Shown in pieces: positions 6,648 to 57,460 of a DNA stretch of 64,000 nucleotides (position 1 is its first letter; each line of letters starts with the position of its first letter). A program made the position numbers and the translations under genes. Below the pieces are notes generated by a model. The model did no database searches. It was not told where the DNA came from and saw only the letters and a list, made by a program, of their open reading frames with translations. Source of the DNA: Methylocystis hirsuta (lineage in GTDB: Bacteria > Pseudomonadota > Alphaproteobacteria > Rhizobiales > Beijerinckiaceae); contig NZ_QWDD01000003.1 of the NCBI RefSeq assembly GCF_003722355.1, positions 186,001 through 250,000 of the forward strand. Reading direction: 5' to 3'.

Positions 6648-6961
6648 GCCGAAACGCCGCTCGCATTGTCGTTGGCGCCGGGACTGCCCATGACCGTGTC
6701 GCAGTGCGCGCCCATCAGAAGGATTTCTCGCTGCCGCGCGCCGCCGCTACGCGTTATCTCAAGATTGAGACAGCGAACTCCCGAAACTTCGTACGCCAAT
6801 CGCTCGACAACATAGCCCCACTGTTCCCATTGACGCTCGATATATGACGCAACCGCCTGCAGCGCTCGGGGATGATAAATGTTGCGCTCGCCGATCTCGC
6901 CAGCCAGCTGTTCGACGTGAGCTCGGAGGTTCTGCATCGAGGCTTGCGCTTCGGTCTCCAT
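6648..6961 (-). pseudogene. N-terminal fragment of an M28-family peptidase
   Basis: Read on the minus strand from an internal ATG (METEAQASMQNL), the frame gives a zinc-peptidase N-terminal region: VASYIERQWEQWGY, then LLMGAHCDTV, then GANDNASGVSA. The last two correspond to the metal-binding HxD and the Asp-containing GANDNxSG motif of M28 aminopeptidases. Homology stops exactly at the transposon terminal repeat (base 6648), so the C-terminal two thirds are missing. The start at 6961 is preferred over an in-frame ATG at 7039, because residues before it lack family similarity. Confidence 0.7.
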
Positions 6962-7324
6962 TGATCGACCCCAGAAGCTTGGGACACAGTCGCTGGCAGC
7001 TTGAGACACTACCGTAAGCTCCTGCGGCAGAAGAGACAATTGACGCGATTGAGGCGCGATTGGGCTATTGGCGTTGGCGGTAAGCCGGCGCGAACGAGTG
7101 TGGCTCGTCAGGCGCCTCGGCCGCGTAAACGCCGTTGCGAATGGCCTGCATATGCTGATCGGTCACGATCCCGCCAATCGCGGCGAGCTTCACGTCCAGT
7201 TCCTAAAGGCCGAGGCCGTCGCAGTTCGGCGTGGGCAGGCGTGAGGCACGGCTCGCACCAAAAAAGAAGGACGGCCCATGAGCAAGCCGCCGCATGAGTT
7301 GGAGCGAGGAAAAATGTACCGACG
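6962..7324. other. Region with possible gene debris
   Basis: No intact gene. On the minus strand about 7080-7200 encodes a coding-like run (LDVKLAAIGGIVTDQHMQA...) that ends in TAG after AYRQRQ and is preceded by an in-frame stop. It may be the tail of a decayed gene. On the plus strand a 30-residue frame at 7278-7370 overlaps the end of merR and is probably chance. Confidence 0.3.
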
Positions 7325-7804
7325 CTACCGCCGCCTCATGACTGAGGTTGCCGTCGGCATTGGCGGTTGACGCCCGGAGGATTCAACGGCTGGCGGCCGC
7401 GTATCGAAAAGAGCGTCGATGACCGCGCATTCAGGCACCCGGTCCCCGCTGCACTGAGCCGCCATTTCCGCCATCACCCTTTCGAGCCGCTTCAAATCCG
7501 CGATCTTGCGGCGAATCTCCGCCAGGTGATCCAATGTCAGCTTGCGAACTTGCGCACAGGTGTAAGCGTCGCCGTCAACAAGACGAAGCAGGCCTCGGAT
7601 TTCATCGAGGCTGAAACCAAGTTGCCGGCTGCGCCGCACGAAGCTCAAGCGCTTGAGATGGTCCGCGCCGTAGAGCCGGTACCCACTCGCACTACGATCA
7701 GGCACCGGCATGACTCCGATCTTCTCGTAGTAGCGGATGGTATCGATGTTCACGCCGCTCTGCTTCGACGATTCGCCAATCGAGAGCCCATTTTTTTGCT
7801 TCAT
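7325..7804 (-). CDS. merR: MerR-family mercury-responsive regulator
   Basis: A 159-residue MerR regulator, divergent from the mer structural genes. The N-terminal winged helix-turn-helix reads LSIGESSKQSGVNIDTIRYY and is followed by a dimerisation coil. Three cysteines at residues 83, 118 and 126 match the Hg(II)-binding triad of MerR (82, 117 and 126 in the Tn501 protein, from memory), though the last gap is one residue shorter. The start at 7804 is the ATG directly before the DNA-binding domain; an in-frame ATG at 7954 would run through the mer promoter. It is expected to repress and, with Hg(II), activate the promoter at 7837-7867. Confidence 0.9.
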   Translation of the reverse strand: MKQKNGLSIGESSKQSGVNIDTIRYYEKIGVMPVPDRSASGYRLYGADHLKRLSFVRRSRQLGFSLDEIRGLLRLVDGDAYTCAQVRKLTLDHLAEIRRKIADLKRLERVMAEMAAQCSGDRVPECAVIDALFDTRPPAVESSGRQPPMPTATSVMRRR

Positions 7805-7836
7805 GTCCGGCCTCTTGGCGCTCGTGAAAAATCCTC

Positions 7837-7867
7837 TTGACCCTGTAGCGGCTACAGGCCCTAGGGT
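7837..7867 (+). promoter_or_regulatory. mer operon promoter with MerR operator
   Basis: The -35 box TTGACC (7837-7842) and the -10 box TAGGGT (7862-7867) are separated by 19 bases. That over-long spacing is the hallmark of MerR-controlled promoters. Between them lies the perfect dyad CTGTAGC-G-GCTACAG (7843-7857). It points toward the small ORF and merT; merR starts 33 bases to the left on the other strand. Confidence 0.88.
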
Positions 7868-7921
7868 CTGATTATTCCGGCCGGACGGCGCTGGCAAGCA
7901 GCACGATGGGAGGGTGCGACG

Positions 7922-8038
7922 ATGTGTGACGGCGAAGGTCTTGGTCTCATCCAAATGGCGATGACGCCGATCGGGTTAGCGGTGACGGCTGGGATTGCCG
8001 CGCTGCTTTTCCTTGTCATGCGTTGGATTCGCGCCTGA
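7922..8038 (+). CDS. Small one-helix membrane protein leading the mer operon
   Basis: A 38-residue frame starting 55 bases after the mer -10 box, preceded by GGGAGGG. It begins MCDGEGLG and then forms one hydrophobic segment (LAVTAGIAALLFLVM) ending in WIRA. It is the first frame in the operon, ahead of merT. I do not recognise it as MerC, MerE, MerF or another named mer protein. Its position and its single N-terminal cysteine suggest a small accessory membrane protein (inferred). It could also be an untranslated leader. Confidence 0.5.
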   Translation: MCDGEGLGLIQMAMTPIGLAVTAGIAALLFLVMRWIRA

Positions 8039-8092
8039 GGTTGGCGCGGACCGATTCCGACGGCTCTTTGGAAAGAAGCGAGGAAAACCTCC

Positions 8093-8497
8093 ATGTCCGA
8101 ACAGATACTGTCCGAGAAAGCGTCCGACCGATTATCTGACCAACCGGCGGCGGACCGAGCGTCCGGCCGCAAGGCTCTCGCCGCCGGCGGCGTCGCCGCG
8201 ATCCTCGCATCCGCGTGTTGTCTCGGTCCGCTCGTGCTGGTGAGCCTCGGGTTCAGCGGGGCCTGGCTCGGCAATTTCAAGGCGTTCGAGCCATTTCGGC
8301 CGCTTTTCCTCAGCGCCGCCTTCGTTGCGCTGTTCTTCGCCTGGCGTCGCATCTATCGCCCGGCCATGGTCTGCAAACCGGAAGAGGCCTGCGCCGCGCC
8401 GCAGGTGAGGTCGGCCTACAAAGTGACCTTCTGGGGCGTCGCGGCGCTGGTCGGAGGGTCGACCGTTTTTCCCTACGTGCTTCCGCTTTTCTACTGA
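8093..8497 (+). CDS. merT: MerT mercuric ion transporter
   Basis: A 134-residue inner-membrane protein that takes Hg(II) from MerP and passes it to MerA. Three hydrophobic segments are visible. The first contains the vicinal cysteine pair at residues 42-43 (ASACCLGPLVLVSLG). The cytoplasmic loop holds the second pair at residues 94 and 100 (MVCKPEEACAAP). The N-terminal 25 residues before the first helix are longer than in the Tn501 protein. It is co-transcribed with merP, which follows after 17 bases. Confidence 0.9.
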   Translation: MSEQILSEKASDRLSDQPAADRASGRKALAAGGVAAILASACCLGPLVLVSLGFSGAWLGNFKAFEPFRPLFLSAAFVALFFAWRRIYRPAMVCKPEEACAAPQVRSAYKVTFWGVAALVGGSTVFPYVLPLFY

Positions 8498-8514
8498 AAG
8501 AGGACCCCCCAATC

Positions 8515-8793
8515 ATGAAAAAACTCGCCGCGATGATCGCTTTGTCCGCCGTTTTCAGCGCGCCGGCCTGGGCCGCCAGCCAAACGATCACCCTGTCGGT
8601 CTCCGGCATGACCTGCGCCGCCTGCCCAATCACCGTCAAGAAGGCGTTGAGCAAGGTTGAGGGCGTGCAAGCAACCGAGGTGAGCTACGAGAAGAAGGAA
8701 GCTATGGTGACCTATGACGACGCGAAAACAAACGTCGAAGCGCTCACCAAGGCGACCGAAGGGGCCGGTTATCCTTCCGAACTGAAGAAGTGA
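8515..8793 (+). CDS. merP: MerP periplasmic mercury-binding protein
   Basis: A 92-residue periplasmic carrier. A signal peptide (about residues 1-20, ending APAWAA) precedes one heavy-metal-associated domain with the GMTCAAC metal site. The fold and length match MerP. The start has an AGGAC site nine bases upstream. It hands Hg(II) to MerT. Confidence 0.92.
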   Translation: MKKLAAMIALSAVFSAPAWAASQTITLSVSGMTCAACPITVKKALSKVEGVQATEVSYEKKEAMVTYDDAKTNVEALTKATEGAGYPSELKK

Positions 8794-10635
<1,842 letters not shown>

Positions 10636-23278: not shown

Positions 23279-25813
23279 ATGATCGACACCACGCTACCGA
23301 CAACTGGCGCATTGTCCACGGCTGCTCGACGTGAGCACATAGAATTGACTGTGGGCGGCATGACCTGCGCCCACTGCCCTCCCGCGATCGAAAAGGCGCT
23401 CAAGGAAATAAAGGGAGTCGTATCGGCGCGAGTGAACCTCGCGAACCAGATCGCCGCGATCAATTATGACGCGGATCGCGTAAATATCGCCGATCTCGCA
23501 AGGGCCATCCGCGTCGCCGGCTACGTTGCGGGCGCCGCGAAAATTCGCGTTTCTGTAGCGCAAATGCATTGCGCCTCCTGCGTGACCCGCGTCGAGTCCG
23601 CCCTGAAGGGAACGCCGGGCGTCATCGCCGCTACAGCCAATCTCGGCACAAGCGCCGTTGATATCGAATATGACCCGCAAAAGACCGATTTCAGCGCGAT
23701 CCGCGCGGCGATCGAATCTTCCGGCCACAGGATCGCGGAGCAACGGCCCCAAGAGATAAAGGTCGCCGTTGAAGCCGGTGCTGATCCCGATCAGATTGCG
23801 CGCGAAAGTGAATATAAAACGCTCATGCACAAGTTCTGGTTCGCGGCGATCGTATCGGCGCCAGTCATGGCGCTGAGCTATCCCGATCTGATTCCCGGGT
23901 TGCGCGACTGGATGCCGGCGGGCAGCGACACTCGGCGTATCGTCTGGGCGCTGCTTGGCGTGGCATCGGTTCCCGTGCTCGTCTGGTCGGGCTCGCAATT
24001 CTTTGTCGGCATGTGGGACGCGTTGAAGCACCGCGCCGCCAATATGCACACCTTGATCTCGATTGGCGTCTCGGCGGCTTTCCTTTATTCGGTAATCGCA
24101 GTCGCCTTCCCCCATCTCTTCCCGAGCATGGCGCTCGCCGAAGTCTTCTGGGATGTGACCGATGTGGTGATCGCCCTCGTCACGCTGGGGCTGGCCTTAG
24201 AGCTAAAGGCCAAGGGCCGCACCTCGGAAGCGATCAAAAAGCTCATCGGGCTACAAGCCAAGACCGCACGGGTGCTGCGTGACGGCGAGGAAATCGACTT
24301 GGCCGTAGAAGAGGTCGTTGCCGGCGACATAGTCGTGATCCGTCCAGGCGACAAGATCCCTGTGGACGGCGAAGTGACCGAAGGGTCCAGCGCCGTCGAT
24401 GAGTCGATGATCACCGGGGAGTCGATTCCCGTCGAGAAACACGTCGGCGACGAGGCGATTGGCGGCACGCTCAACAAGATGGGCAGTTTTAAGTTCCGCG
24501 CGACCAAGGTCGGCAAGGACACAGCTCTCGCCAACATCATCCGGATGGTCAAGGACGCGCAAGGCTCGAAAGCGCCAATCCAGCGCGTCGTGGATGCGGT
24601 GTCGGGCTTTTTCGTTCCGACCGTGATGATTTTGAGCGTTCTCGCCTTCATGATCTGGTATGCCTTCGGCCCAGAGCCGCGCGTCATCTACGCGACCATC
24701 GTTCTGGTCACGACACTGATCATCGCCTGCCCTTGTGCGCTGGGGCTCGCCACGCCGACTTCGTTAACGGTAGGTATCGGCAAGGGCGCCGAGAATGGAA
24801 TCCTCATCCGCTCCGGCGATGCGCTTCAAAGCTCGGAGAAACTCCAGGCGATCATTCTCGATAAGACCGGAACGATCACACGCGGCGAGCCTTCGTTGAC
24901 GGACGTGGTTCCCGTCGACGGTCAACGCGAAGAGACCGTGCTGCGGCTCGCGGTGGCTCTCGAACGCGGCTCCGAGCACCCGCTTGGCGAAGCCATCGTT
25001 AAGGGTGCGGAGGCGCGCGGCCTTCCGCCCGTTGAAGCGAGGGGATTCGTGGCGATACCGGGTCATGGCGTGAGCGGCGAGGTCGATGGCCGTCAGGTCC
25101 TCCTCGGCAACACAAAGCTGATGGGTGATCGTGGCGTAGCAATCGACGCACTCACGGCAGCTTGGGAGCGCCTAGCCAATGAAGGAAAGACGCCAATGTA
25201 TGTGGCTGCCGATGGGCAGTGCCTCGGTCTCGTCGCCGTCGCCGACACAGTGAAGTCCGATTCGAAAGCGGCGATCGAAGCCCTCCTTCGCTTGGGGCTC
25301 GAAGTGGTCATGCTGACAGGCGACAACGAACGAACGGCCAAGGCGATTGCAAGTCAAGTAGGCGTCGGTCGCGTGCTCGCAGAAGTGCTGCCCGACGCCA
25401 AGGCGCATGAGGTTCAAAAACTCCAGCTTGAAGGAAAGACCGTCGGCATGGTGGGCGACGGCGTCAATGACGCGCCGGCGCTTGCGCAAGCCGATGTCGG
25501 CTTCGCCATCGGCACGGGCACGGATGTCGCGATCGAAGCAAGCGACGTGACGCTCATCAGGGGCAGCTTACAGGGCGTTGTCACGGCGATCGAGATCAGC
25601 CGCGCCACCATGCGTAACGTGCGCCAAAACTTGGTCGGCGCCTTCGGTTACAACGTTCTCGGCATACCTGTGGCGATGGGCGCGCTTTATCCGGCCCTAG
25701 GCATCCTGCTGTCGCCGCTTATCGCCTCGGCGGCGATGGCCTTCAGTTCCGTCACGGTTGTCAGTAACGCCAATCGCCTGCGCTTCTTTCAGCCGAGGAG
25801 GACCGCGTCATGA
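23279..25813 (+). CDS. copA: CopA-type Cu(I) P1B-ATPase
   Basis: 844 residues from ATG 23279; a TTG two codons upstream is possible. It exports Cu(I) to the periplasm. Two N-terminal heavy-metal-associated domains carry CAHC (Cys30, Cys33) and CASC (Cys98, Cys101). The membrane metal site is Cys484-Pro-Cys486 ([13 protein letters not shown]), the phosphorylated Asp528 sits in [11 protein letters not shown], and the hinge is [12 protein letters not shown]. The actuator TGES is also present ([12 protein letters not shown]). The next gene starts inside its stop codon. Confidence 0.95.
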
Positions 25814-26874
25814 TCTCACGCCCGCTCCGCCTTGCGCTCGCCGGGTTCCTTTTGGTTTTGCTCGGGGCGACGGCGTCGGCGCAGAGCGATCGCTGGGGGC
25901 GGTGTCGAAGCGCCGAACCGGACGCTCGGATCGCGGGCTGTACGGAGGTCATCGACCGTCTAAAACGCCAGAGTAGGCGTGATCAGTTCTCAGCCTATTT
26001 TAATCGTGGCGGCGCCTATCGAGCGAAGGGCGATCTTGATCGCGCCCTCGCCGATTTGGACAAGGCGCTGAAACTCTATCCCAAGGCGGCGTCCGCGCTT
26101 GCAGAACGCGCATCCATCTTCAAAGCGAAGGGCGATTCCGACAAGGCGATCGCCGATTACGACGCGTCCATCGCGGAGCGACCGAACCCCGCCGCTTTCC
26201 TTGGCCGAGGCGAGGTCTATCGAGCGAAAAACGAGTTCGACCCCGCCATCGCGGACTACAACGAGGCGATCGCTCTCGATCCCCAATTGGCGGACGCCTT
26301 CCTCTCCCGGGCCAAGGCCTATCTCGGTAAGGAAGATCTCGAGCGCGCCAAACAGGATCTCGAAGCAGCGTTGAAACTCGATCCCCGGCTCGCCTCAGCC
26401 AAAGCGGCGCTCGACGAGGTGACGAAGCGTGTCGCCGAGCGCGTTGCGGCTTCGGGCGCTCCGACGACGTCGGGACCGACCGCGGAGGCGGACTATGCCT
26501 CGCCGGATCGTTTGATCGTCGTCGCCACCGGATTCGTCCTTATCGCCTTCATCGTCTGGTTCTTCTGGCTCAAGCGCGCAACAGGCGTGCGCGCGGCCGA
26601 AACCAGCGGCGGCTATCAGGAGGCGATGATTCTGGTGAAAGGCGGTTACACGCCCGACACCATCATCGTGCGGCGAGGCAAGCCCGTGCGGCTCAACTTT
26701 CGCCGCGAAGAGACGGCGTCGTGTTCCGACAAGGTGATTTTCTCCGAATTTCAAAAGAGCGCCGAACTGCCCACCGGCGAAACCGTCGCGGTCGAGTTCC
26801 TCCCGACGGAGTCTGGCGAATTCAATTTCGCATGCCCCATGGGCATGTTCCGCGGCAGGCTGGTTGTCGAATAG
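25810..26874 (+). CDS. TPR-cupredoxin fusion protein
   Basis: 354 residues, coupled to copA by ATGA overlap. An N-terminal signal ([19 protein letters not shown]) precedes about four to five tetratricopeptide repeats (residues 55-210; [18 protein letters not shown] is one). A transmembrane helix follows at about 233-253 ([20 protein letters not shown]), then a cupredoxin domain at about 265-354 ([35 protein letters not shown]). Membrane-cupredoxin proteins next to copA are known as separate short proteins; here a TPR domain is fused in front. The Cys and Met residues in SCSDK and CPMGM are likely ligands. Confidence 0.8.
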
Positions 26875-31887: not shown

Positions 31888-34800
31888 ATGGAATCGGTTG
31901 ACAAGCCCTGGCATTGCTTGACCGGCGATGAAGCGCTGCAGCGCCTCGGCGCGCCCGCGAACGGCCTGAGCTCAGCGGAGGCCAAGAACAGACGCGCCGT
32001 AATCGGGCCGAATGCGATCGCGGAGACAAAGCCGGTTAGCCCCTGGGCGATCTTTTTCGCCCAGTTCAAGAGCATTCTCATCTGGCTCTTGATCGGCGCC
32101 AGCGTCGTCTCGGGCGCGCTCGGCGAGGCGACAGATTCGTTTGTCATTCTCGCGATCGTGTTCCTGAACGCAGTTGTGGGCTTTTATCAGGAATACAGCG
32201 CAGAAAAATCGATTGCGGCCTTGAAGCAAATGACCGCGCCGCGGGCGAAGGTTTGGCGTGACGGCGCGGTGACAACCAGTGCCTCGGCCGACGTGGTTCC
32301 TGGCGACCTGCTGGAACTCGAGTCCGGCGATCTCGTCGCGGCCGATGCGCGCTTGCTGTCCGCGGCGTCGCTCACCTGCGTCGAGGCCGCCCTGACGGGC
32401 GAGTCCGAGCCCGTCGGGAAGAGCATCGAGGCCCTGGACAACCCGGAGTTCGCCATCGGCGACCGGACCAACATGGTGTTCATGGGAACGAGCGTCGCGA
32501 CCGGCTCCGGCCGCGCCGTCGTCGTCGCCACCGGGATGCGAACCGAAATGGGCCACATCGCTTCGCTGATCAGCGAGGCGGGCGCTGAAGCGGAGACGCC
32601 CCTTCAGCAGAAACTCGAGCGGTTCGGCCACGTGCTCCTGTGGGCCACGCTTGGAACCGTGACATTACTCTTCGGCCTCGGCTTCTTGCGCAAAGAGCCG
32701 ATCCTCGACCTGTTCATGACGTCGGTCAGCCTCGCCGTCGCGGCGATACCCGAAGGCCTGCCGGCCGTGGCGACGGCGGCTCTGTCGCTCGGCGTGCTGC
32801 GCATGTCGCGACGCCGCGCCCTCGTGCGCCGGCTAGCGTCCGTAGAGACGCTGGGCTCGACCAATGTCATCTGCACCGACAAGACCGGAACTTTGACAGT
32901 TGGTCAGATGACCGTCCGCGCCATGGTCGTCGCCGACCGGACCTACGAGGTCTCCGGCGAGGGCTACAGTCCCGAAGGCGATGTGCGATTGAGCGGCGCG
33001 GCCGTCGACCCCAGTCGCGACAGCGCGCTGCGCCAAATGGCGCAAATCCTTGTCGGTTGCAACAACGCTCAATTCGAGCGATCGAAAGACAATGCGTGGA
33101 GCGTTATTGGCGACCCGACCGAAGGCGCGCTGCTCTCCGCGGGTCAAAAAGCAGGCGCCGACCGGAGCGCGTTGGACCGGGACGATCCGAGGGTTCACGA
33201 AATCCCCTTTGATTCCGACCGCAAGCTGCATTCGATTGTTCGGCGCTTGCCCGATGGGCGTCTGCGCGTTCTCACAAACGGCGCCCCAGAGATGCTGTCG
33301 GCCAAATGCTCACACATTTGGCGCGAGGACGGCGTTCATCCGCTGACCGACGCGGATCGCGAAGAACTCGCCCGGCAAAACGCCAATCTGGCCGGCAAGG
33401 CGCTGCGCGTGCTCGGCGCGGCTTATCGCGATTTCGATGGATTGTCGCTCGATCAACTTACCCCGGAAACCGTCGAGCGTGATCTGGTTTTCGTGGGACT
33501 CGCCGGCTTATACGACCCCCCGAGGGCCGAGGCGAAAGAGGCCGTCGCAAAATGCCAAGCCGCCGGCATCCGGGTTGTGATGATAACCGGCGATCATCCG
33601 CGCACCGCCATCGCCATCGGCAGGGAGTTGGGGCTCGCTGAAGAAGGTCAGGTAGCGACGGGCGTCGAACTCGACCGGCTGACCGATGACGCTCTGCAGC
33701 AACGCGTCCCCAGAATCGCCGTCTATGCGCGCGTCAGCGCCGCGCACAAATTGCGCATCGTCAGGGCGTGGCAGGCGAACGGCGCCGTCGTCGCCATGAC
33801 CGGCGATGGCGTGAATGACGCGCCGGCAATCAAGGGCGCCGATATCGGGGTAGCGATGGGCCGAATCGGCACGGAAGTGACGAAGCAGGCGTCCGACATG
33901 ATCGTCACCGACGACAATTTCGCGACCATCGTCGACGCGGTGGAGGTAGGCCGCGGCATCTATGAGAACATTCGCAAGACCCTGCTATACCTTCTCGGCT
34001 GCAACGCCAGCGAACTGCTGCTTATCACGATTTGCATCGTCAGCGGTCTCCCGACGCCTCTCCTGCCCATTCATCTGCTCTGGATCAATCTCGTCACCGA
34101 CGGGCCGCCGGCGCTATGTCTCGCGGCGGACCGCGTCGATCCAGGACTAATGAGCCAGCGTCCGCGCGCGCGGGGAGAGCAGCTCGCGGATGCGCGATTT
34201 TTCTGGGCGATGTTGTTGACCGGATCGCTCATCGCTGGCGTGACTTTCCTCGCCTTTTTATGGGGGCTGCAATCGGGGGGCCTCGAGGTCGCGCGCACTT
34301 ACGCATTCTGCGGGATGGTCTTCGCGCAACTGCTGATTTCGCTGGGCGCGCGCAGCCAGACGACGCCGATCTGGCGCCTGGACCTTATGTCGAACCTCAA
34401 TTTGCTCCTCGTCGTGAGCGTGTCCATCACGATCCAGATGTGGACTCACATCAGCGCCACGCTCTCGCGTTTCTTGTCGACGTCACAACTTCCTTACCAG
34501 GATGGCTTCGTCTTGCTGGCCGCCGGCGCCGTGCCATTGCTGGCGCTCGAATTCGTCAAGCTCGCGCCTGCCGCAGCAAAAGAAGAGCGCGGGGCGATCC
34601 CCTCGACAAGATGGATTGGGTCGATAACGGCGGTCGTCATTGTGGCGACCTTCGCTGCAAGTTGGCTCTATTGGCCGCAGCCGCGGGAAACCGCCGCGCA
34701 ATTTTTGACCCACGCGATCGAACGAGGCGACGTGATCCGCGCCGTCACGGCGACCGGCGTCGTCCGTCCGCGGCTGACGACCGAGGTTTTCGCGCCCCTG

Positions 34801-35691
34801 ACGGGCGTCGTGCGATTTCCCGATTGCGAGGTCGGCGCTACGGTTACGAAAGGCCAGCTTTGCGCAACGATTGATCAGCAGCATTATCGTCTACTCGTCG
34901 AACGCCGAAGAGCCAATTTATCCGCCGCCCAAACGCAATTGGACAAGGACAAGAAGGAACTCGCGCGTGCGAAATCGACCTTGGAGCGCGCTCGTGCCTC
35001 GGCGAAGCGGAGCTTGATCGACAAAGCGACAAGCGCACATGAGCGGGCGCTCGCAAGAACGAAGCGTAGCGAGAACCTGACCGCACAGCGTGAAGCTGCG
35101 TTGCGCGTGGCCGAAACGGCTTTCCGACGAACGGAAGTCCGGGCGCCCATGGACGGGGCCGTGACTTTCCGGCGGCTCGAGACTGGCCAGACGGTCGAAG
35201 CGGGAAGGTCGATGCTCTTCATCATCACGGATCACGCCGACGCGCAGATCGAGGTTGTGGCGGCGCCGGGCGAGGTTGGCAAGGTCAAGATCGACGATCG
35301 GGCTTCAATCAAGATGGACGCGGCGCCGGGGCGGGCGTTAGACGGGCGGGCGACAGAGATACGCAAGCTGCAGAATGTTATCGTCCTGTCCGTCCCGGAC
35401 GCCGAAAGCGTGCTTGAATCGGGCATGACAGCGACTGCGCGGATTGTAATCGATGAGCGCGTTAACGTGCTCCGCGCGCCGAACGAGGCGCTGCGCTATT
35501 CGCGGAGGCGCGATGCGGCGCAAGTCCCCGCCAGAGGCGAAAAATCTGACATCATGTCAATTTGGGTGCTGCGCAAAGAGAAGCCGACGCCTGTCCCTGT
35601 CCGACTTGGTCTGGACGACGGCGCGTATACGGAAATCGTCGAAGGCGATTTCGAACCCGGCGACGAGTTGATCGTCGGCGAGAAGGTTTGA
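31888..35691 (+). CDS. P-type (P2-like) ATPase fused to an HlyD/MacA-type adaptor domain
   Basis: 1267 residues in one uninterrupted frame. Residues 1 to about 895 form a complete P2-like ATPase: actuator TGES (170-173), membrane motif PEGLP (288-292), phosphorylated Asp331 in CTDKTGTLT, hinge [10 protein letters not shown] (from 638), and a C-terminal six-helix block. An additional helix at about 906-927 (ITAVVIVATFAASWLYWP) leads into a membrane-fusion domain. This has a lipoyl-like half (VFAPLTGVVRFPDCEVGATV), a long alpha-hairpin (about 1001-1085), the second half (VRAPMDGAVTFRRLETGQTV) and a beta-barrel (MTATARIVIDERVNVLRAP). Ten ATPase helices plus one put the adaptor in the periplasm. 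The ion is not known; PEGLP suggests Ca2+, Mn2+ or another divalent ion, but the setting is copper. Confidence 0.9.
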   Translation: MESVDKPWHCLTGDEALQRLGAPANGLSSAEAKNRRAVIGPNAIAETKPVSPWAIFFAQFKSILIWLLIGASVVSGALGEATDSFVILAIVFLNAVVGFYQEYSAEKSIAALKQMTAPRAKVWRDGAVTTSASADVVPGDLLELESGDLVAADARLLSAASLTCVEAALTGESEPVGKSIEALDNPEFAIGDRTNMVFMGTSVATGSGRAVVVATGMRTEMGHIASLISEAGAEAETPLQQKLERFGHVLLWATLGTVTLLFGLGFLRKEPILDLFMTSVSLAVAAIPEGLPAVATAALSLGVLRMSRRRALVRRLASVETLGSTNVICTDKTGTLTVGQMTVRAMVVADRTYEVSGEGYSPEGDVRLSGAAVDPSRDSALRQMAQILVGCNNAQFERSKDNAWSVIGDPTEGALLSAGQKAGADRSALDRDDPRVHEIPFDSDRKLHSIVRRLPDGRLRVLTNGAPEMLSAKCSHIWREDGVHPLTDADREELARQNANLAGKALRVLGAAYRDFDGLSLDQLTPETVERDLVFVGLAGLYDPPRAEAKEAVAKCQAAGIRVVMITGDHPRTAIAIGRELGLAEEGQVATGVELDRLTDDALQQRVPRIAVYARVSAAHKLRIVRAWQANGAVVAMTGDGVNDAPAIKGADIGVAMGRIGTEVTKQASDMIVTDDNFATIVDAVEVGRGIYENIRKTLLYLLGCNASELLLITICIVSGLPTPLLPIHLLWINLVTDGPPALCLAADRVDPGLMSQRPRARGEQLADARFFWAMLLTGSLIAGVTFLAFLWGLQSGGLEVARTYAFCGMVFAQLLISLGARSQTTPIWRLDLMSNLNLLLVVSVSITIQMWTHISATLSRFLSTSQLPYQDGFVLLAAGAVPLLALEFVKLAPAAAKEERGAIPSTRWIGSITAVVIVATFAASWLYWPQPRETAAQFLTHAIERGDVIRAVTATGVVRPRLTTEVFAPLTGVVRFPDCEVGATVTKGQLCATIDQQHYRLLVERRRANLSAAQTQLDKDKKELARAKSTLERARASAKRSLIDKATSAHERALARTKRSENLTAQREAALRVAETAFRRTEVRAPMDGAVTFRRLETGQTVEAGRSMLFIITDHADAQIEVVAAPGEVGKVKIDDRASIKMDAAPGRALDGRATEIRKLQNVIVLSVPDAESVLESGMTATARIVIDERVNVLRAPNEALRYSRRRDAAQVPARGEKSDIMSIWVLRKEKPTPVPVRLGLDDGAYTEIVEGDFEPGDELIVGEKV

Positions 35692-40822: not shown

Positions 40823-42226
40823 CTATTGCAGAGAGGCTTGTTCCGGCGGCTCCGGCGGCGACATCTCTGGCCGACCGAGCGTTTCTATGTCCACGCCCGC
40901 AAGAGCTTCGAGTTCCGCTAGCCGCTTTTCTCGCTCGATCCTGGCTTCGGCGACCAAGACCCGGACTGAAATATAAGTCCGCTGGCTGTCGATGAGATCC
41001 GCGAACTGCACGCTTCCAGCTGCGTAGGCTTCCCGCGAACTGTTGATCAGTTGCTCGACGATAGGGACCACCCGCCGCCGGTAAAAACTCGTTTGTCGCT
41101 CTGCGTTGCGCATAAAGTAAAGGTTGGCGACGAAGCTCGCAGCGCGGTCTTTCTCGGTTTGCCGCAGGACTGCTTCCGATGACCGCGCCATCGCCTCCGT
41201 GTCCTGGATCATCGCGAGAATCGCCGGGATCCTCGTCGGCACCATCACAAACATTTCGGCCGTTCTTTCAATATTGCCGGTGATGCTCCCGGCAGGCACG
41301 AGATCCGGCAGAAATTCCAGCCTGGCGAGCTCTATGGCGTCCTTGCGTCCGGCCACTTGGCGGGCGAGAGCGGCCAATTCCGGGTTTTGATCGACGGCGA
41401 CCTCGATGATGCGAGCATCCTTACCGATCACGGGACGCGCGGCGGGCAAAGTCGGGGGAAGGTCCAGCGGCGCCTCGGCGTCGCGAGCAAGAAGACCGTT
41501 GAGCTTACTGCGCGCCGAGCGGACCTCGGCTTCCAAGTTCAGCAGGTTGTTCTTCGCCAGCTCCCAGTTGGTCTGGGCCTTCAACATGTCTTGCAGGGGA
41601 GCCCCAGCCTGGCTCCGAGCGGCGGCCGAGCTCGTCAAGAGCTTGAGAAGGTTTACGTTGTCGCGCTCGATGCGGACTTTTTCCCTGGCCAGCGCCAAAT
41701 CCAAATAAGCGATGAGAACCTTACGCTGAAGCTCGAACTTGACAGTGCGAAATCTCTCGCTGGCCGCTCTGGCCGCCTCCAGCGCTACTTTTCCAGCGGT
41801 CCACGTTTTGATCGGCAACTGCAGAGTCGTCGACGGCATGAAGGTGCCGCTGAGCGTCATGCGGTCCCATGTCTTCATCTGATCACGCGAAAACATGTAG
41901 CGGTAACCGAACATCAAATTGGTGTTGGGCCAGCTCGCATCCCGGTCGACCCGGGCCAAAGCCGCCTTCCACTCGAAATAGGCCGATTCTAATTCCCCAT
42001 TGGCTAGGAACGCTCTGTGCAGCACGTCGCGCCAGCTGGCAACCGCAGGCAGAGCCGGCAACTCCCGAGCCTCAATCGGCGGCTCGAAGTGCTCGGAAAC
42101 TTCGCTCAGCTTGGCTTGCTCCTCCGTCGTGCCAGGTGGCGTGAGAGCACAGCCGCTAAGCCCCAAGGCTGTCGCCATGCTCAACCATGCCCTCAGGATG
42201 AGGTCGCGCGGTCGTTTGCTGAGCAT
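40823..42226 (-). CDS. cusC: CusC/TolC-type outer-membrane channel lipoprotein
   Basis: 467 residues from ATG 42226. The lipoprotein signal ends LGLSGC, with the cysteine as the acylation site. The two OEP repeats with long helices follow (RTVKFELQRKVLIAYLDLAL, AEVRSARSKLNGLLARDAEA; second half TSFYRRRVVPIVEQLINSSR). It forms the outer-membrane exit of the second Cus system. It is the only complete channel gene in the window, so it may also serve the first pump. Confidence 0.88.
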   Translation of the reverse strand: MLSKRPRDLILRAWLSMATALGLSGCALTPPGTTEEQAKLSEVSEHFEPPIEARELPALPAVASWRDVLHRAFLANGELESAYFEWKAALARVDRDASWPNTNLMFGYRYMFSRDQMKTWDRMTLSGTFMPSTTLQLPIKTWTAGKVALEAARAASERFRTVKFELQRKVLIAYLDLALAREKVRIERDNVNLLKLLTSSAAARSQAGAPLQDMLKAQTNWELAKNNLLNLEAEVRSARSKLNGLLARDAEAPLDLPPTLPAARPVIGKDARIIEVAVDQNPELAALARQVAGRKDAIELARLEFLPDLVPAGSITGNIERTAEMFVMVPTRIPAILAMIQDTEAMARSSEAVLRQTEKDRAASFVANLYFMRNAERQTSFYRRRVVPIVEQLINSSREAYAAGSVQFADLIDSQRTYISVRVLVAEARIEREKRLAELEALAGVDIETLGRPEMSPPEPPEQASLQ

Positions 42227-42393
42227 CAAGCATTCGGTCCTAGAAAGGGGCTGCAAAGTCTCGCGAAGACAACACAATAAGCGCTGGAGTTATCAAATCA
42301 ACCTGTTCCCAGTCGGCGCGTCGCCTCGGAACGCCCTTCAAATATCCGCGCGACGGCACACGCAGGCGTGGCGCGCAGTGCGCAGTGCGGGCG

Positions 42394-54184: not shown

Positions 54185-57100
54185 TCATTCTCGGATCACG
54201 CCGAGAGAAATACGTCGATTTTTTGCGCGTCCCTCTTCGGTGTCATTGCCCGCGATCGGACGGTCTTCGCCATAGCCCTTCGCCTCCAAGCGCGAAGGGG
54301 CGACCCCCATTTGTGTCAGTTCACGGGTTACAATATCGGCGCGCGCTTTCGAGAGCCTCTTATTCGCGATTGCATTGCCGAGGCTATCGGTGTGGCCGCC
54401 AATGACCACCTTGACCTCGGCGTAGGCGGAAAGAATCCGAGCGATATTTTGCAGTTGCTCCCGCGACGACATCTGCGGAGCCTTTTTGCCCTTGCCGAAC
54501 GAGACGCGATCGAAATCGAACCAGACAATTTTGGCTGCGGACTTAGGCGTGCTCTCGAGGAACGCAAGCAACTTTCTTTCGACACCCGCGCTGGAAACGT
54601 CTAACTCGACGCCATTCGGGAGGCTTATTCTGGCATATGCGTGTGGCCCCTCGCCCACCGTTTTCGCCTCGCGTTCTCCGGTCTCTGTTTGGGTTTGCTT
54701 CTCGATTGTCGAGCCCACCCCTTTCCGGACGGTAAGCGTGGCCGGTGGCGGAGCAGGCGTCACTTGTTGCGTCGGCGCCGGCGTCGGTTTCTCTATCGAA
54801 CTCGGTTCCGTTTCTTGCGAGCCGAAAAACTTCGGCCCATAGCCGATGAGGATCACACCGAAGGAGATCGTCAACAACGCCGCCAATACAGCCCACGCAA
54901 CGCCCTTTCGACCCCGAACGGACGAATAAGGTTGATCGCTTGCAGACTGTTCTCCCTTGACCACTTTTGCGACCTCGATCCAAAACGTAGTCAAAATTGT
55001 CACGGCGATAATTGCAATCCATAAGTCAGGTCCAAGCGCAGCAGTCTTAAAGTAAATGTTGAGCGTCGGCGTGGAGGTTATCGCAACGGAGAAAATAATC
55101 ATCCCGACGAGCCACGAGGCGCCAAACCGATTGGAAAACAATCCTTGTTTGAAGAGCGACAGTTTTTCTTGCTTCAGGTTGAGCGCCAAGGCGATATGCC
55201 CAAGAAGCCAGGTGACGAACGCCGCGGTTTGGGCGAGCACAAGATCGCCAGTTTGGAAATAGATCGACAGGTAGAGTGCGGTGATCCCGACAGCTAAGGC
55301 CGCTCCATTGCGAATGATTTCGAATACCAGTTCTCGGCCCAAAAACTCGTCGAGTCTTGGCGCTCTCTTCTTCATCACATCCGGCTCTGCCGCTTCCGTG
55401 ACAAAGATCGTGGAAGACGCCAAATCCATAAGCAGTTCGGTCAGGATGATGTGGATCGGCGCAAAAGGAAATGGAACTCCGAGGGCTAACGGCACAAGAA
55501 AGATCGCCAGCAGAATGCCTTTGGCGGTCAGATAGTAAGTCAAACCCTTGCGGAAGTTATCGAGAGCCGAGCGTGCGACGCCAATCGCATCGGCGACATG
55601 CGTGTAATTATCATCGGTGAGGACGAGATCTGCGGTTTCCTTGGCGAGATCGGCGCCGATCTCGCCCATTGCGATTCCAACATCAGCGGCTTTTAGCGCG
55701 GGCGCGTCGTTAATCCCGTCGCCGATAACTGCAACAATTTGTCCTTCTTGCCTGAGCGCCTGGACAAGGCGCAGTTTCTGCGCCGGTGAAATACGGGCGA
55801 ACGCCTTCGTCTTCTCGAGCGCGGACTCGAGCTCGCTTTCGCTCATGTTCTCGAGATTGCCACCCGTTAATACCTCTGCGTCTAGGCCGATTTCTCTTGC
55901 GATCGTCGCCGCGGTCGCCGGGTGGTCGCCGGTCACCATGATCGTTTCCACCTTGGCGGCTTCAAGCTCTGTGATGGTTTGGGCGACGCCCTGTCTCACA
56001 GGATCGGAGAGGACAGCAAGCGCAAGAAGTTCGGCTTTGTTCGGATCATCGGAATTTTGCAACTGCCCGTATGCGACGACGCGCTTGCCTTCTCCAACTT
56101 TTACCTCAAGCGCCCGGCGCAGCCGTTCCTTCCGGGAGGAATCGGAGACGCTTTCGATCAGCCGTTCGGCCTTACCGGCGGCATATCCGAGACGCTTGCC
56201 CCCGATGTCGTAGCCGATGATTCTCAAAGGCCTGTCTTCGCCAAATCCAGAGAAGCTCGCCTGCCGAGGAACATCAATTGAGTCTTGAACAACAGAGCGC
56301 ACTGCAAGGTCGGTGGGGTCATTGGAGTACATCGGAAGCGCCAGCAAGATGGCTCGCTTATTATCAGCGGAGAGACTTGCAGGCGTTCGTTCTTCGCCAT
56401 TCAGCAATATGAATGTTTCGACGCGCATTCTGTTTTCGGTGATCGTGCCGGTCTTGTCCGTGACAACCGCCGTAATTTGCGCCAGCACCTCGACGCCTCT
56501 GAGGCGCTTTACGACGAGCTTGATGTTCGCCAGCCGAAAGGAGGCCAACGCCAGCGCCATGGTGATGATGATCGGCGGCTGGCCCGGTATCATGAGGAAC
56601 GTAAGGGCAAGCCAGGTGACAATCATTTCTTGAAGATTGAGGCCTCGTAAAAATCCGACTGCCGGAATGAGGGCGCTGACCGCCAGTGCGAAAATCGCCA
56701 AGACCTTGGCAAGCCGCGTCATCGTCTCCTGTAAGAGGGTCTTTTCCTTCGCAGCGACAGCAACCTCATGCGCGGTCTCGCCGAATTCGCTCTCGCGGCC
56801 GACCGCGCAGGCAAGCGCCTTGCCTTCGCCGCTCATCACCACCGTCCCTGAAAATACCGAGTTCTTGCGTTCGGCAAGGGGAGCGTCTGCGGACACGATC
56901 GTCTTTGCGTCTTTCTCGACCGGCAGCGATTCTCCAGTTAGCGCCGCTTCGTTCACGACGAGACCGTAGGCTTCCAATAGGCGGCCATCGGCGGGTACGC
57001 GAACGCCTTCAGTGAGAACCAAGACATCGCCGACGACAACATCGGTCGTCGGTATCTCCTGCGCCTGACCGTCGCGAATCGCCTTCGTTGTCGGCGACGT

Positions 57101-57460
57101 GAGCTGGCGGAGCGCCGCCATAGTGCGGTCCGTGCGATATTTGTTGACGAATTCAACCGCGATGTACGCCGCCACCACGAAAACCATCACGATCGCTTCG
57201 TTGGTCTTGCCAAAAACAAAGGACAAAACGGCAATGGCAAGCAAGACGAGCATCATCGGCTCGCGTATGCCATCGAGAACGAGTTTGAACGCGCTCGTGG
57301 GCTTGACTTCGTCGATCGTGTTGGCGCCGAACCGCTCGCGAGATTTGCTCACGCCATCGGCGGAAAGACCGTCCCTTTCGTTGGAGCCGAATTCGGCGAG
57401 AAGGGACGGCGGCGGAACCGACCACCATGCGTCTTTCTTTCGAAGGGCATTTCCAGCCAT
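54185..57460 (-). CDS. P-type ATPase fused to an OmpA peptidoglycan-binding domain
   Basis: 1091 residues in one uninterrupted frame. Residues 1 to about 840 are a P-type ATPase: TGES at 175-178, phosphorylated Asp335 in VVTDKTGTIT, IMVTGDHPATA and VIGDGINDAPAL. The TM4 motif is IPGQPPIII (292-296 PGQPP) instead of PEGLP. An extra helix at about 849-870 (AVLAALLTISFGVILIGYG) leads to a Pro-rich linker (EKPTPAPTQQVTPAPPP) and then a C-terminal OmpA domain (IVWFDFDRVSFGKGK, VVIGGHTDSLGNAIANKRLS, RAKNRRISLGVIRE). Ten helices plus one place the OmpA domain in the periplasm, where it could hold the cell wall. The transported ion is unknown. Confidence 0.9.
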   Translation of the reverse strand: MAGNALRKKDAWWSVPPPSLLAEFGSNERDGLSADGVSKSRERFGANTIDEVKPTSAFKLVLDGIREPMMLVLLAIAVLSFVFGKTNEAIVMVFVVAAYIAVEFVNKYRTDRTMAALRQLTSPTTKAIRDGQAQEIPTTDVVVGDVLVLTEGVRVPADGRLLEAYGLVVNEAALTGESLPVEKDAKTIVSADAPLAERKNSVFSGTVVMSGEGKALACAVGRESEFGETAHEVAVAAKEKTLLQETMTRLAKVLAIFALAVSALIPAVGFLRGLNLQEMIVTWLALTFLMIPGQPPIIITMALALASFRLANIKLVVKRLRGVEVLAQITAVVTDKTGTITENRMRVETFILLNGEERTPASLSADNKRAILLALPMYSNDPTDLAVRSVVQDSIDVPRQASFSGFGEDRPLRIIGYDIGGKRLGYAAGKAERLIESVSDSSRKERLRRALEVKVGEGKRVVAYGQLQNSDDPNKAELLALAVLSDPVRQGVAQTITELEAAKVETIMVTGDHPATAATIAREIGLDAEVLTGGNLENMSESELESALEKTKAFARISPAQKLRLVQALRQEGQIVAVIGDGINDAPALKAADVGIAMGEIGADLAKETADLVLTDDNYTHVADAIGVARSALDNFRKGLTYYLTAKGILLAIFLVPLALGVPFPFAPIHIILTELLMDLASSTIFVTEAAEPDVMKKRAPRLDEFLGRELVFEIIRNGAALAVGITALYLSIYFQTGDLVLAQTAAFVTWLLGHIALALNLKQEKLSLFKQGLFSNRFGASWLVGMIIFSVAITSTPTLNIYFKTAALGPDLWIAIIAVTILTTFWIEVAKVVKGEQSASDQPYSSVRGRKGVAWAVLAALLTISFGVILIGYGPKFFGSQETEPSSIEKPTPAPTQQVTPAPPPATLTVRKGVGSTIEKQTQTETGEREAKTVGEGPHAYARISLPNGVELDVSSAGVERKLLAFLESTPKSAAKIVWFDFDRVSFGKGKKAPQMSSREQLQNIARILSAYAEVKVVIGGHTDSLGNAIANKRLSKARADIVTRELTQMGVAPSRLEAKGYGEDRPIAGNDTEEGRAKNRRISLGVIRE

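Follow-up and report, generated by a model that had tools for sequence, protein, structure and literature searches.

A P-type ATPase fused to a MacA-type adaptor in Methylocystis hirsuta and the recurrence of such fusions on other pumps

Tripartite efflux systems, in which a periplasmic adaptor or membrane fusion protein (MFP) links a transporter to an outer-membrane channel, have been described with ABC, resistance-nodulation-division (RND) or MFS transporters (PMC8277102, excerpts). A gene of Methylocystis hirsuta raises the question whether an ATP-driven ion pump can carry an adaptor of its own and what such an adaptor would do. The gene is located at 31888-35691 on the plus strand of the stretch of DNA analyzed here, 64,000 nucleotides of contig NZ_QWDD01000003.1 (the window). 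A first-pass annotation, made from the DNA letters alone, had described it as one uninterrupted 1267-residue frame, in which a complete P2-like ATPase is joined by an extra helix to a full HlyD/MacA-type domain. The gene and its main parts are the following.

31888..35691, plus strand: fused gene of 1267 amino acids, type IIA P-type ATPase, transmembrane helix 11 (TM11), MacA-type membrane fusion (adaptor) domain
31888..34602, plus strand: ATPase part, residues 1-905, from Pfam/NCBIfam and PDB sequence search; nearest solved relative Listeria lmo0841
34612..34668, plus strand: TM11, residues 909-927, at the joint of ATPase and adaptor; hydropathy 1.83, model helix 911-927
34825..34863, plus strand: cysteine pair of the lipoyl domain, C980 and C992 (C-x11-C), both invariant in the 27-row alignment A1
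34879..35127, plus strand: alpha-hairpin, residues 998-1080, from model helices; tip without the RLS docking motif by motif scan
35134..35688, plus strand: second lipoyl half, beta-barrel and membrane-proximal-like domain, residues 1083-1267, from model strands and MacA-type matches

The fusion described in the first-pass annotation was confirmed. The frame is open over its 1267 codons with zero internal stops, and G+C is lowest at the second codon position in 13 of 13 blocks of 100 codons, a coding-like pattern that extends over the whole frame. The catalytic motifs TGES (170), PEGLP (288), DKTGT (331) and GDGVNDAP (639) were all found, and Pfam placed Cation_ATPase_N (8-75), E1-E2 (115-309), Cation_ATPase (390-477) and Cation_ATPase_C (722-892) in the ATPase part. 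In the adaptor part HlyD_D23 (1023-1158) and HlyD_3 (1084-1159) were matched, as was the NCBIfam family RND_mfp (944-1260) with a score of 110.7 against a cut-off of 94.9. A model of residues 895-1267 (predicted local distance difference score, pLDDT, 85; predicted template-modelling score, pTM, 0.55) contains a helix at about 911-927, the lipoyl strands, a hairpin with arms of 41 and 40 residues (model helices 104-144 and 147-186) and the beta domains. In Foldseek, the first PDB hits of this model came from MacAB-TolC entries, in which the matched chains were presumed to be MacA (E 8e-23 and 3e-18, TM-scores 0.56-0.61); an AcrA model, the MacA crystal structure 4dk0 (2e-17) and MexA-type adaptor chains were also among the top matches. 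Like the MacA of MacAB-TolC, the adaptor part thus has a membrane helix followed by lipoyl, hairpin, barrel and membrane-proximal-like folds; unlike MacA, it is covalently attached to a P-type ATPase, lacks an ABC transporter partner and has no RLS tip. These results confirm a true ATPase-adaptor fusion with an added membrane helix.

A homologue search was then evaluated for its best 120 of 7774 hits. An adaptor with the cysteine motif follows the ATPase in frame in 41 of the 43 best-scoring proteins (P0001-P0043, query included); of the other two, P0039 diverges from the family at the junction and P0041 terminates there. The remaining 77 of the 120 (P0044-P0120) are ATPases free of an adaptor, as judged by length and Pfam. 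For five pairs of related fusion genes, the ratio of nonsynonymous to synonymous substitution rates (dN/dS) was 0.31-0.53 in the codons of TM11 and adaptor and 0.08-0.23 in those of the ATPase, with the pair that includes the window gene near saturation at synonymous sites. The adaptor codons are hence under purifying selection, less constrained than the ATPase. Because the adaptor stays in frame in 41 of 43 proteins and its codons are under such selection, the fusion is, as far as sequence conservation can tell, no accident. The production of a free adaptor from an internal start was also considered and rejected: in ten fusion genes, the in-frame ATG, GTG and TTG codons around TM11 gave no support for a conserved start. 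GAGG or GGAG precedes an internal start codon in four of the ten (window, L118, L120, L116), at positions that do not correspond, and the candidate start in the window gene, residue 949, lies within the adaptor.

The first-pass annotation knew of no described P-type pump that carries its own adaptor and proposed a search for other ATPase-adaptor chains. Many relatives and several further types of fused pump were found, so that it is not a lone case. In a tree of 125 chosen ATPase rows, from which P0035 and P0291 were dropped by a length filter, fused proteins occupy at least five places: A, the window type; B1 (L115, L118); B2 (the chromosome copy of the window genome itself, P0241 and others); B3 (L120, L121, P0290); and C (L116, L119, L122). 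Unfused neighbours accompany A, B1, B2 and B3, and a separate origin of the group C fusions is less sure, since C has none in this set. A further C-type fusion, L117 (7575-11287 of a G114 contig), is split into two frames. In a tree of 40 rows, hand-picked after the 125-row tree and calculated with LG+G4, seven changes of state were counted, six of them forced by starred branches. A single ancient fusion among the type II ATPases was rejected by the approximately unbiased test (p 9.9e-12 for all fused rows, 2.7e-11 for B1, B2 and B3 together). On the adaptor side, in an analysis of 32 of the 33 rows (all but P0129), a single clade was rejected for the A modules (p 0.001) and for the B modules (p 0.0001), and the test of all fused modules as one clade gave p 0.042. 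The two trees also conflict: in the adaptor tree the P0014 tail (A) is paired with the P0274 tail (B2), a pairing obtained in two analyses, and one starred group holds both the P0012 tail (A) and the P0276 tail (B2).

Adaptors of this kind were found behind other pump types as well. L188 (G135, 6824-10477) consists of an ATPase that reads from its sequence as P3A-like, followed by an adaptor that groups with free MacA-type proteins. In L189 (G042), L190 (G078) and L186 (G089) a P1B ATPase is followed by hemerythrin, a transmembrane helix and the adaptor; in other family genomes, e.g. G144 and G016, the ATPase-hemerythrin part alone matches. A C-terminal hemerythrin domain is known from P1B-5 ATPases (PMC9388753, excerpts), likewise pumps with an extra C-terminal domain, and the P1B-hemerythrin arrangement is found in the methanotroph relatives; the window protein and L186, L189 and L190 differ from them by an MFP on a further helix. 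L194 (6233-8746, G089, M. heyeri), which adjoins a gamma subunit gene, combines the alpha subunit of an alternate (N-type) F1-ATPase (TIGR03324 over cut-off) with a membrane helix and a cysteine-pair adaptor. The domains of L188, L189 and L194 were confirmed by Pfam, while L186 and L190 were read from sequence. Common to the fused classes are the membrane anchor, the lipoyl domain with C-x11-C and the hairpin; the adaptors of L115 and L118 are without barrel and membrane-proximal parts.

The tails resemble one another more than their carrier proteins do. The module probably came from a MacA, because the two nearest free cysteine-pair adaptors examined (G017, G089) adjoin MacB-like ABC genes, for which MacB was the best model, below cut-off. 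Taken together, trees and domain orders indicate that the fusion recurs on separate pump lineages, through the joining or swapping of one kind of adaptor module. Whether the MacA-derived unit of membrane helix, lipoyl domain and hairpin serves alphaproteobacterial methanotrophs as a portable periplasmic subunit, attached in separate events to type IIA, several other type II, P3A-like and P1B ATPases and to F1-alpha, is in our judgement evenly balanced.

The distribution of the fusions is narrow. The window genome has two: besides the window gene, which is on contig C3, a fusion 39% identical to it lies on the large contig C1. A scan of genome contigs gave, judged from the query residues matched, ATPase parts without adaptor, none of them extending past query residue 938. 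Another fusion is encoded on plasmid pGW6_1 of Methylocystis rosea, where it is annotated as a HAD-IC family P-type ATPase, and Methylocapsa proteins are among the homologue hits. Sampled genomes of the family were scanned at E 1e-100 (149 genomes, best four candidates per genome scored) and at E 1e-30 (148 genomes, best eight). P-type fusions were found in G000, G017, G078, G089, G114, G128 and G146, and in addition in G042 and G135. The AMO/pMMO (ammonia/particulate methane monooxygenase) family PF02461 is present in 11 of 148 sampled family genomes, and nine of these 11 have a P-type fusion, the exceptions being G105 and G126; at the cut-offs used none was seen in the 137 other family genomes, including G057 of the window's genus. 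With nine genomes from two genera, this tie is a lineage association and not an independent correlation. When all candidates of the 11 pMMO genomes were scored in a deeper scan, the yield was 15 frames with a P-type fusion, among them the downstream piece of one interrupted gene, and a single F1-alpha fusion. Outside the family, no match in an order sample of 397 genomes (E 1e-170) extended past query residue 913. With a fusion profile, matches beyond the ATPase part were confined to G000 in a class sample of 385 genomes (E 1e-60) and to G000 and G017 in a phylum sample of 398 (E 1e-75); these three samples overlap, two to three candidates were scored per genome and diverged fusions could be missed.

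The ATPase part points to a cation of the Ca2+ type. Its best PDB sequence match is the Ca2+-ATPase lmo0841 (E 1.2e-163), followed by Ca2+-ATPase type 2C member 1 and SERCA, and the residues that would contact the ion are located as follows.

32752..32754, plus strand: E289 of IPEGLP in TM4, invariant in the 27-row alignment A1
34003..34014, plus strand: N706 and E709 in TM5, both invariant in A1
34087..34101, plus strand: N734, T737 and D738 in TM6; N734 and D738 invariant in A1, T737 replaced by S in three rows

We take E289 to be the position of SERCA E309, N706 and E709 those of N768 and E771, and N734, T737 and D738 those of N796, T799 and D800; in SERCA these are Ca2+ ligands. In TM8 the window protein has Q814, presumably at the site of SERCA E908, and Methylocapsa-like rows have E there; the 27-row consensus is PESLP and the window protein has PEGLP. 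Catalytic motifs and most Ca2+-ligand positions are therefore common to the window protein and the type IIA Ca2+-ATPases (Listeria lmo0841, SPCA/PMR1, SERCA), to which the window protein adds TM11 and the adaptor. It scores below the cut-offs of three curated Ca2+ equivalog models (TIGR01522, 673.8 against 798.3; TIGR01116, 592.6 against 703.4; TIGR01517, 444 against 507), for which reason we infer the transported ion rather than assign it. The gene product is thus predicted to be an ATP-driven cation exporter of the Ca2+-type P2A group with a C-terminal MacA-type adaptor.

The first-pass annotation had further placed the adaptor in the periplasm by means of the extra helix. The helix is there; the periplasmic site is the expected topology. 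Ten membrane helices are usual for the type IIA group, and a periplasmic adaptor is expected because one helix is added to these ten, the anchor is MacA-like and the cysteine pair suits an oxidising compartment. The helix before the adaptor has a hydropathy of 1.2 or more in 83 of 91 fusions. The C-x11-C pair, which is in the first lipoyl half, was kept in all 91 scanned, rows that had been preselected as fusions with P0039, P0041, P0260 and P0275 omitted; all 10 fusion frames taken from fetched loci have it too, L114 among them being A-type. Among the listed hits of a search with the adaptor alone, only 15 of 120 have the pair, and several of the 15 are fragments of fusions. The two cysteines appear to occupy positions in the core of the lipoyl fold, an arrangement suggestive of a disulfide and hence of a periplasmic site.

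For the adaptor we tentatively predict a periplasmic role in which the tethered module brings the pumps together in clusters or activates them, rather than a role as a conduit to TolC. MacA packs side by side through its anchor, lipoyl domain and hairpin, and a self-assembly or activation module is favoured because these are the parts that the fused classes keep. The membrane anchor, the disulfide-stabilised lipoyl domain and the hairpin would self-associate as in MacA, which would gather the pumps into rings or arrays. MacA reportedly stimulates the ATPase of MacB, and the module may stimulate its pump in the same way. The ATPase motifs with most of the Ca2+-ligand positions, the MacA-like fold, the separate fusions, the MacB-like genes beside the nearest free cysteine-pair adaptors and the purifying selection on the adaptor speak for this reading. 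Several points weigh against it: the adaptor parts evolve faster than the ATPase; the module is also found on proteins that are not pumps, AHSA1 (L187, P0132) and DUF202 (P0130); oligomerisation of the fused module is as yet a proposal by analogy; the full-length model (pLDDT 72, pTM 0.40) is uninformative on how the domains sit together and was not used for their arrangement; and the charge bias around TM11 is weak, with 52 of 91 fusions more positive before the helix, 14 equal and 25 reversed, so that positive-inside charge was discarded as a proof of topology.

An alternative is a trans-envelope pump, in which an adaptor ring or funnel on the ATPase docks to an outer-membrane factor (OMF) and the ion leaves the cell in one step. 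We consider it unlikely. It would agree with the MacA-like hairpin length and complete fold, and R-x3-L-x6-[ST] occurs at the hairpin tip in five of the 43 best-scoring rows (P0010, P0012, P0018, P0025, P0042); by pattern, however, the motif is absent from the other A-type rows. A motif scan found no R-x3-L-x6-S in the hairpin of the window protein, and its tip falls five residues short of the length in relatives that have the OMF-docking motif. In MexA this motif is R119-L123-S130, and TolC-binding adaptors without it exist (both PMC4446572, excerpts). Within about 8 kb of the fusion, RND or OMF genes are present in the window, in L115, in L118 and on M. rosea pGW6_1, and by eye in L190 and L117; against this, an RND gene was recognised in three of ten fusion loci (L115, L117, L118), from the starts of open reading frames (ORFs) only. 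The annotation had named the TolC-type protein at 40.8-42.3 kb as a channel to which the adaptor could dock. This OMF-like gene (40823-42277) is on the strand opposite to the fusion, behind a CusA/CzcA-type RND pump and a CusB-like adaptor of its own; within the window no OMF gene follows in the fusion's own direction of transcription, the next genes being on the other strand. Docking of the window protein to this channel is not supported, given also its short tip without the motif. Furthermore, small ions such as Ca2+ pass porins anyway, and a monomeric pump does not simply match a hexameric adaptor. The adaptor of the window protein is therefore probably not a conduit to a TolC-type channel.

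Still less probable is a non-adaptive accretion, in which a macA-like gene is prone to fuse to upstream genes and leaves a tail with little role. It would explain the module on AHSA1, DUF202 and F1-alpha proteins, its reduction in L115 and L118 and the faster evolution of the adaptor, but neither the dN/dS of the adaptor (0.31-0.53) nor the cysteine pair in all of the preselected fusions fits a dispensable tail, and most partners seen are ATP-driven cation pumps. Least probable is a hand-off, for which CopA and the Cus system offer a precedent and in which the ion is released to the periplasm and passed by the fused adaptor to a neighbouring RND pump: a CusA/CzcA-type RND operon is convergent to the fusion in a metal-related region, and the B1 fusion has an RND gene immediately upstream in L115 and, beyond one ORF on the opposite strand, in L118, but the ligand set of the ATPase looks Ca2+-like and not Cu-like, the RND operon of the window owns an adaptor, the RND pumps of L115 and L118 score best as drug-type, below cut-off, and no RND gene was recognised in seven of ten fusion loci.

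If the module is indeed a portable periplasmic subunit of pumps, these proteins would form a class of adaptor-bearing primary ion pumps apart from the ABC, RND and MFS tripartite systems; an adaptor built into a primary ion pump would be a novel architecture. The adaptor fold is the same as in those systems (PMC8277102, excerpts); in the window protein the energised component is a P-type ATPase and the operon holds no channel partner. The term P-type is absent from the excerpts of the adaptor review PMC8277102 and from the main text of PMC4446572, and among the papers that searches of the openly licensed PMC literature listed, none describes a P-type ATPase fused to an adaptor in its title or displayed abstract; an earlier mention elsewhere is possible. 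Public names of the proteins are P-type ATPase, Ca2+ or Mg2+ ATPase and RND adaptor, and P0245 (JGI) is labelled as both ATPase and multidrug efflux pump. Recurrence on unrelated pumps in one group of methane oxidisers suggests that these bacteria have a need in common, which may be linked to metal economy or internal membranes. It would provide several natural experiments on what an adaptor adds to a pump, and hints at an undescribed way to organise ion export.

The neighbourhood of the gene looks like a metal-related region. Over cut-off are two CusA/CzcA-type RND pumps, a CopA-type P1B ATPase and an RND-type adaptor with a weaker CusB match; below cut-off are a TolC-family protein, an MbnH-like di-heme enzyme and a multicopper oxidase. 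A different partner recurs elsewhere. Among the 120 relatives listed, eight (P0010, P0021, P0025, P0027, P0030, P0031, P0034, P0037; about 1600 residues) carry an AI-2E family permease domain (PF01594) in the same chain, at the N-terminus in P0010, the one checked, and in M. heyeri a separate AI-2E gene is directly downstream of the fusion. Its occurrence both within the chain and as an adjoining gene points to a working link with the permease; no AI-2E gene was recognised next to the window fusion from ORF starts, without a family search.

Other genes were noted beside the fusions and their relatives. The C-type fusions L117 and L122 are downstream of a SulP-like gene, recognised by eye, and an NRAMP-like gene (below cut-off) adjoins L120 (B3) and is near L190 (P1B). 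In P0062 and P0066, one of them named Methylobacter svalbardensis, PF03631 replaces the adaptor behind an A-type ATPase by alignment. The window encodes a second fused pump (54185-57460, minus strand), in which a hydrophobic stretch links a P-type ATPase to a C-terminal OmpA domain. None of the matches at E 1e-40 in the remaining 10 pMMO genomes extended into the OmpA part, and a copy of the gene, 79-87% identical and split into two frames, is present on contig C4. On the same contig L003 (G000) encodes a type II ATPase with an N-terminal TPR-like stretch and no adaptor, and the start of a 354-residue ORF in the window (25810-26874, plus strand) resembles that of L003 by eye.

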